Shown piece by piece: positions 13,883-15,978 of a DNA stretch of 15,978 nt. Position numbers and translations under genes: made by a program. The DNA is from Comamonadaceae bacterium (GTDB taxonomy: Bacteria; Pseudomonadota; Gammaproteobacteria; Burkholderiales; Burkholderiaceae_C): NCBI GenBank assembly GCA_947458345.1, contig CANHBU010000005.1, forward strand, positions 1-15,978, read 5' to 3'. The notes under the pieces were generated by a model. It was not told where the DNA came from and searched no databases. It worked only from the letters and a program-made list of their open reading frames with translations. Within the stretch, counting starts at the first letter, position 1. Every line of letters starts with the position of its first letter.

Positions 13883-14973
13883 TGCTCGATCCCCGGCTCG
13901 CCGGCCTCATCCGTCAGGATGTGCAGTCCATGCACGCCTATGCCGTGCAAGATTCGGCCGGCATGGTCAAGCTCGATGCGATGGAAAACCCCTACAGCCT
14001 GCCGCCCCAGTTGCAGGCCGAACTGGGACGCCGGCTCGGCGCCTTGGCCTTGAACCGCTACCCCGACCGGCGCCTGGGCGATTTGCGACAGGCCTTGGCC
14101 AGCTATGCCAAGCTGCCGGCGGGTTTCACGCTGATGTTGGGCAATGGCTCGGACGAACTGATTTCCCTGCTGGCGATGGCCTGCGACCTGCCGGGCGCCA
14201 GCATCTTGGCGCCCGTGCCCGGCTTCGTCATGTATGCGATGAGCGCGCAATTGCAGGGACTCAATTTTGTTGGGGTGCCCCTGAGCCGCGATTTCGAGCT
14301 CGATCTGCCGGCCATGCTGGACGCCATCGGGCAGCACAAGCCGAGCATCACCTACCTGGCCTATCCGAACAACCCGACGGCCAATTGCTGGGACGATACC
14401 GCCATCGAGACCATCATCGCCGCTGTGGGCCGGCAAGGCGGCCTGGTGGTGATGGATGAGGCCTACCAGCCTTTTGCTGGCAAGAGTTATATCGACCGCA
14501 TCGCCGATCACGGCCATGTGCTGTTGATGCGCACCCTCAGCAAGTTTGGTCTGGCCGGCATCCGGCTGGGCTACATGATGGGGCCCGCTGCACTGATGGC
14601 CCAGATCGACAAGGTGCGCCCGCCCTACAACGTGAGCGTGCTCAATTGCGAATGCGCGCTGTTTGCACTCGAGCACCAGGAGGTGTTTGCGCAGCAGGCC
14701 CAGGCCATCGTCGCCGAGCGCGAAAGGCTGCTGGCTGCGCTGGCGGCCCTGCCGGGCGTGACGGCCTTTCGCAGCGATGCCAACATGGTGCTGCTGCGCT
14801 TGGGTGGCCCCCCCGAGCGGGCGTCGGCCGTTTTTCAAGCGCTCAAGGAGCAGCGGGTGCTGGTGAAAAACGTTTCTAAAATGCACCCTTTGCTGGCCAA
14901 CTGCCTGCGCCTGACCGTCGGCACGCCCGATGAGAACGCGCTGCTTTTGCAGGCCCTCCAACACAGCCTATGA
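13882..14973 (+). CDS. hisC: Histidinol-phosphate aminotransferase
   Basis: HisC is a PLP-dependent fold-type I aminotransferase that converts imidazole-acetol phosphate to histidinol phosphate with glutamate as amino donor. It is 363 residues long, normal for the family. Landmarks are [10 protein letters not shown] at 32-41, the Tyr60 of NRYPD that reaches the neighbouring subunit, GNGSDELI at 87-94, YPNNPTAN at 161-168, DEAYQPF at 192-198, the PLP-binding Lys221 in [15 protein letters not shown], and the Arg in the C-terminal [11 protein letters not shown] that binds the phosphate or carboxylate. The ATG at 13882 overlaps the hisD stop; the frame extends upstream within hisD, but only as shadow. 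GAGG about 11 nt upstream is a weak ribosome site. The stop overlaps the hisB start by 4 nt. Confidence 0.96.
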
Positions 14974-15578
14974 CCTCCCCCGCCCAGACCGCCCGCATTG
15001 CCGAGGTGAGCCGCCATACCGCTGAGACCCGCATCAGCGTCAAGATCAACCTCGATGGCACGGGGCAGTCGCGCCTGGCCACCGGGATCGGTTTTTTCGA
15101 TCACATGCTCGACCAGATTGCCCGCCACGGCCTCATTGACCTGGACATCGTGGCCGAGGGCGATTTGCACATTGACGGCCATCACACCGTCGAGGACGTC
15201 GGCATCACCCTCGGTCAGGCGCTGGCTCAGGCGGTCGGTGACAAGCGCGGCCTGCGCCGCTATGGCCATGCTTACGTGCCGCTCGACGAGGCCCTGTCGC
15301 GGGTCGTGGTCGATTTTTCCGGCCGCCCTGGCCTGGTGATGCATGTGCCGTTTAAGAGCGGCATGATCGGGCAGTTCGACACGCAACTGGCCTACGAGTT
15401 CTTCCAGGGGCTGGTCAACCACGCTTTCATCACCTTGCACATTGACAACCTGCGCGGCGAGAACGCCCACCACCAGGCTGAAACCGTGTTCAAGGCCTTC
15501 GCCCGTGCTTTGCGGATGGCGCTGGAGATCGATCCGCGCGCGCCATCTGCCATCGCCTCGACCAAGGGTTCGCTCTGA
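14970..15578 (+). CDS. hisB: Imidazoleglycerol-phosphate dehydratase (monofunctional)
   Basis: HisB removes water from imidazole glycerol phosphate to give imidazole acetol phosphate, the substrate of HisC. The 202-residue protein is the monofunctional dehydratase. It lacks the N-terminal histidinol-phosphatase domain of the enterobacterial bifunctional HisB, so a separate phosphatase must exist elsewhere. The metal-binding motifs are intact: F-D44-H45-M and H53 ([11 protein letters not shown]), DGHHTVED with H71, H72, E75 and D76, and the second set [11 protein letters not shown] with H167 and H168. The ATG overlaps the hisC TGA by 4 nt and has no clear Shine-Dalgarno sequence, so coupling is likely. 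A spacer of 41 nt separates it from hisH. Confidence 0.97.
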
Positions 15579-15619: not shown

Positions 15620-15978
15620 ATGTCCAAGCAAACCGTCGCAGTCGTCGATTACGGCTCAGGCAATTTGCGCTCCGTCGCGCAGGCGGTGCGCCATGCGGCG
15701 CTGGGTTCAGCCTGCGAAGTGGTGGTCAGCAGCGATGCGCAACAAATCCTGGCGGCCGACCGTGTCGTGCTGCCCGGTCAGGGGGCCATGCATGACTGCA
15801 TGCGCTCGCTTGACGCCTCAGGCCTGCGCCAGGCGGTGCTGTACGCGGCGGCCCACAAGCCGCTGTTTGGGGTTTGCGTAGGCATGTAGATGCTGCTCGA
15901 CCTCAGCCATGAAGGTTTGGACGGTCAGCCCACGCCTGGCTTGGGCCTGATCGCAGGACAGGTGCTGCGCTTTGAACT
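15620..15978 (+). pseudogene. hisH: Imidazole glycerol phosphate synthase glutaminase subunit, interrupted by an in-frame TAG; 3' end beyond the window
   Basis: HisH is the class I glutamine amidotransferase that feeds ammonia to HisF in histidine (and AICAR) synthesis. From the ATG at 15620 the frame reads as His[14 protein letters not shown] at 7-19, the oxyanion-hole segment LPGQGAM at 51-57, and the nucleophile elbow FGVCVGM with catalytic Cys86. It is then cut by TAG at 15887-15889. After the stop the same frame continues to the window edge with ordinary HisH sequence (MLLDLSHEGLDGQPTPGLGL and then IAGQVLRFE). Family members have Gln directly after the nucleophile Gly-Met, so CAG to TAG is the simplest explanation. 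The stopped 89-residue product lacks the His and Glu of the catalytic triad. A real nonsense mutation and a base-call error are both possible. An ATG directly after the TAG could allow restart but would not restore the first part. Confidence 0.88.

Follow-up and report, generated by a model that had tools for sequence, protein, structure and literature searches.

An in-frame TAG codon terminates hisH after 89 codons, at the place of the conserved glutamine of the nucleophile elbow, in the stretch of DNA analysed here (the window, 15,978 nucleotides), which is the whole of one contig (C5) of metagenome bin G000. With a probability that we put at about 0.8, this TAG would be a wrong consensus base within the final ~140 bases of a contig from a fragmentary bin, where support is thin, and the organism's own hisH is most likely ordinary and intact. 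The wrong base may have arisen in sequencing or assembly or through DNA damage, or it may come from a minority read that entered the consensus, and we infer low or mixed read support as the cause. An error is favoured because near-identical intact hisH copies exist and because other, unrelated genes of the bin are broken in a like manner. Of the causes offered in the original prediction, error is the best supported, amber suppression is disfavoured, and auxotrophy is not inferable from the contig.

The interrupted hisH gene

The original prediction placed a premature amber codon exactly at the elbow glutamine, and the TAG is indeed in frame with the hisH start (Table 1). Past it, the HisH frame stays open to the contig end, as had been claimed, continuing without a frameshift for 29 codons whose residues are 69–76% identical to the HisH of relatives (10 rows printed). 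The 89-aa piece upstream of the stop matches positions 1–81 of 198 of the NCBIfam HisH model TIGR01855 with 59.8 bits, which is under the cut-off of 105.4, as expected for a cut piece. It also matches positions 2–82 of 190 of Pfam GATase and resembles HisH up to the nucleophile elbow, the HisH structures 1ka9 and 4gud being matched. Of the features of a class I glutaminase, the N-terminal part and the Cys are present, and a stop stands where the Gln would follow. The elbow Gln of class I glutaminases has a role in glutamine binding, and the catalytic His and Glu of HisH, which we take to lie in the C-terminal part, would be missing from the contig. A passage of PMC8115485 names HisH-C84 and does not mention Q88.

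Upstream, hisG, hisD, hisC and hisB each match their NCBIfam family across all or almost all of the profile, in agreement with the earlier statement that the other his genes of the window look intact. A further remark, that the valine codon GTA (15878–15880) stands two codons before the stop and is unusual, needs correction in both parts: it stands three codons before the stop, GTA makes up 613 of the 8200 valine codons in long frames of 38 contigs, and it is found at the same place in 3 of 24 relatives.

Table 1. Coordinates of the hisH region in the window and of the other breaks judged in the bin
Feature	Location	Strand	Basis or remark
hisH, 5′ part: 89 codons, then TAG, then 29 codons, cut by contig end	window 15620..15978	+	ORF and profile matches
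In-frame TAG at conserved Gln codon	window 15887..15889	+	Frame from hisH start 15620; Gln in relatives
TAC (Tyr75), second private residue	window 15842..15844	+	Comparison with 120 listed HisH proteins
hisB, intact; interior control	window 14970..15578	+	NCBIfam HisB, whole profile; 403–1008 bases from contig end
ftsK, TAG	G000:C11 (L039) 13722	+	321 bases from end; Walker B position
glcD-like FAD oxidase, TAG	G000:C22 (L152) 11351	-	956 bases from end
ABC transporter, TAG	G000:C52 (L225) 4648	-	4454 bases from end
tctC-like receptor, TAA (weak case)	G000:C11 (L039) 198	-	198 bases from end, near contig start

Conservation of the elbow glutamine

The hisH piece finds a match in 38 of the 41 genomes searched (own genome included). 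An alignment with the hisH of relatives, which had been proposed as a check, gave a Gln codon in all 24 loci that were compared (21 from the same genus and 3 from the same order; CAG in 20, CAA in 4). Among 80 named loci around hisB, 79 show a match to hisH; the 78 that reach the site all have a Gln codon (CAG in 57, CAA in 21). At the protein level, Gln is present in all of the best 120 of 5567 HisH matches from a set of 5.8 billion proteins. These counts (24/24, 78/78 and 120/120) support the proposal that the break goes back to the substitution of one base in a conserved Gln codon.

The closest proteins, P0001–P0006, are 225 aa long, 96–98% identical to the HisH of the window, and all carry the Gln. 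Leaving the stop aside, P0001 and P0002 share 117 of the 118 compared residues with the window, the single difference being the Tyr75 of the window. A strict elbow motif searched in 399 genomes of the family, which misses 199 of them, has a Gln codon (CAR) in another 199 and a stop (TAG or TAA) in no genome but that of the window. The change is hence absent from near-identical relatives, and a stop at the motif is seen in 1 of 399 family genomes.

The contig end and the quality of the bin

As the window comprises all of contig C5, the T at 15887 is followed by just 91 further bases of the contig. The bin consists of 399 contigs (2.32 Mb) at 66.2% completeness. The best HisB matches in a named genome collection, which may leave out the genome of the window itself, come from Rhodoferax and other Comamonadaceae or Burkholderiales at no more than 88% identity; the source organism is related to Rhodoferax and other members of the Comamonadaceae. 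Searches of the bin with the 89-aa piece, the last 279 bases and full-length P0001, which include the suggested search for a second hisH, found neither a second copy nor the rest of the gene on another contig; the hisH on C5 is the only place matching P0001, over residues 1–119 with one TAG inside. For hisF, the bin gave only a sub-threshold match and none above the family cut-off, and the remaining his operon probably sits in the missing third of the genome. The last 20 bases of the contig, allowing up to 2 mismatches, match contig C99 once, a match that was set aside as it lies inside a frame that does not look like HisH. As for a contig end one k-mer past the changed base, at a branch of the assembly graph, 38 contigs showed no shared end sequence except a tandem repeat inside contig C26.

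The last 137 bases of the contig hold two private codons, the TAG and, 45 bases upstream of it, the codon for Tyr75. Residue 75 is His in 112 and Gln in 8 of the best 120 of 5567 HisH proteins, and Tyr in none. HisB, further from the contig end, has an identical database protein (P0124, on 42 contigs) and 0 private residues in 202 among 120 listed proteins. With HisH residues 1–73 also counted as interior, the chance of both private residues falling among the last 46 of 321 is ~0.02, a small effect that was calculated after the pattern had been seen and is blind to silent changes. Tyr75 could alternatively mark a real, diverged allele.

Other broken genes in the bin

Stops flanked on either side by coding signal in their own frame were collected from 58 contigs of the bin (677 kb), and breaks were judged by eye. 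Five of the 41 flagged stops were judged to be broken genes, hisH included (four clear, one weak). When 1.43 Mb of G013, a genome of the same genus with a listed completeness of 100%, was scanned in this way, 57 stops were flagged, of which none was judged a break. As judged by eye, the rate of breaks in unrelated genes is raised over that of this good bin (5/41 against 0/57); at equal break frequency, the probability of finding five of five in the smaller sample would be 0.0035.

In three of the other cases, the match to a Pfam domain continues past the stop. In ftsK, a cell-division gene that is essential in many bacteria, positions 2–177 of FtsK_SpoIIIE are followed by 180–221 past the stop, and relatives have Glu at the site in 15 of 15 loci. 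The glcD-like oxidase matches FAD_binding_4 at positions 1–68, then 70–138 past the stop, and seven same-genus genomes match it at 80–90% identity with an open frame of 503–560 aa; the residue at its stop is not readable in close relatives. The ABC transporter matches ABC_tran at positions 5–37, then 40–137 past the stop, and its one reference (G013) has Gln at the site. In the weak case, the tctC-like receptor, Pfam TctC is matched by the downstream piece alone, and the residue at the stop differs among paralogues. Further candidates on contigs C19, C1, C51, C39 and C8 were judged, on a Pfam check, to be adjacent genes or ambiguous.

A scan against a reference, in which 1204 reading frames of G013 were compared with the 58 contigs, gave 155 matches of 140 frames covering 131 kb, with 17 stops inside the matches. 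In four of these, 10 or more of the 15 residues on either side are identical: hisH, the ABC transporter, C28:6088 and C17:8379, the latter two being set aside as probable shadow frames in matches of 53–55%. An earlier scan of this kind with 493 frames, which gave mainly shadow-frame stops, was superseded.

At a nonsense fraction of 2.9%, five breaks correspond to ~3 changed bases per 10,000 coding bases, a rate that plausibly fits thinly covered contigs. The mixture of stops and residues is consistent with random substitutions. Three of the five breaks are found no more than 321 bases from an end of their contig, in a zone that makes up 5.5% of the bases (chance 0.0015, with the 321-base limit picked after the data were seen). 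The other two, in the oxidase and the ABC transporter, are 956 and 4454 bases from an end (Table 1), so end effects alone are insufficient. Since the other breaks of the bin sit in unrelated genes, the active-site position of the TAG in hisH looks like a coincidence. The higher break count of the bin could alternatively come from pooled strains rather than from errors.

Alternative explanations

The strain, or part of its population, might carry a real and recent nonsense allele that makes it a histidine auxotroph or dependent on free ammonia for the HisH step, an explanation that we regard as unlikely. The substitution is clean and single, the upstream his genes look intact, and the bin lacks a second hisH and any hisF above the cut-off, all of which speak for such an allele; the joint absence of hisF and the rest of hisH is, however, what a bin of 66% completeness predicts. 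Near-identical full-length HisH proteins, a stop at the motif in just 1 of 399 family genomes, and the like break in ftsK argue further against it. That HisH is actually cut before the catalytic Gln and the C-terminal part is accordingly just as doubtful, and a real allele would be an ordinary loss-of-function mutation. Auxotrophy is not inferable from the contig of the window alone, for which the nonsense codon by itself is no support.

Very improbable is a HisH that is naturally short in this lineage and ends at the TAG. Two proteins from other species, P0242 and P0248 (90 aa, 76% and 71% identity), do end at FGVCVGM, the same residue as here, although either a stop or a contig edge may be what ends them; they are among 12 short HisH-like proteins. 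The 89-aa form itself is absent among these 12, in a database clustered at 90% identity that could hide it in a cluster. Against a short form stand the 225-aa length of the closest proteins at 96–98% identity, the HisH sequence that goes on past the stop, the catalytic His and Glu, which lie in the missing part, and the family scan, in which a single one of 399 genomes has TAR at the motif and which supports no recurrent stop.

That TAG is read as an amino acid, through natural amber suppression or recoding, can practically be dismissed. In its favour, TAG is the codon in four of the five judged breaks, and hisH and the ABC transporter have Gln in relatives. Against it, ftsK has Glu, which leaves no single decoding for all of them; release factor 1 (RF1) is intact; TAG terminates 78 of 664 coding-like frames; and random substitutions in the codon usage of the bin would yield TAG in ~60% of nonsense changes, a share with which four TAG and one TAA can be explained without any special cause. 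The search for a tRNA with a CTA anticodon, which had been proposed as a check, found none among 20 tRNA genes in the 66%-complete bin. It is equally far-fetched that some in-frame ambers of this lineage, hisH included, are real and read by a suppressor tRNA encoded in the missing third of the genome, with HisH output depending on suppression.

A wrong consensus base hence stays the preferred reading, and the case calls for caution: a nonsense codon that falls on an active-site residue close to the edge of a contig, in a fragmentary bin, gives weak grounds for inferring auxotrophy.

Comparison with known systems

As a gene, the fragment is like HisH, the glutaminase subunit of imidazole glycerol phosphate synthase (TIGR01855), in matching model positions 1–81 and in its frame continuing past the stop. 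It differs in having the stop at the elbow Gln, and in that the C-terminal part is absent from contig and bin. Stop-codon reassignment occurs in phages and some bacteria, and the bin resembles such cases in its in-frame TAG codons in conserved genes; it differs from them in the small number of cases, the differing residues replaced, the intact RF1 and the use of TAG as a terminator. A literature search on premature stops in metagenome bins returned no paper matching all search terms. False pseudogenes that arise through consensus errors in fragmentary metagenome bins are a known kind, from which we saw no differences here: the hisH of the window shares with them an isolated substitution near a contig end, a conserved gene, near-identical relatives in which that gene is intact, and like breaks elsewhere in the bin.
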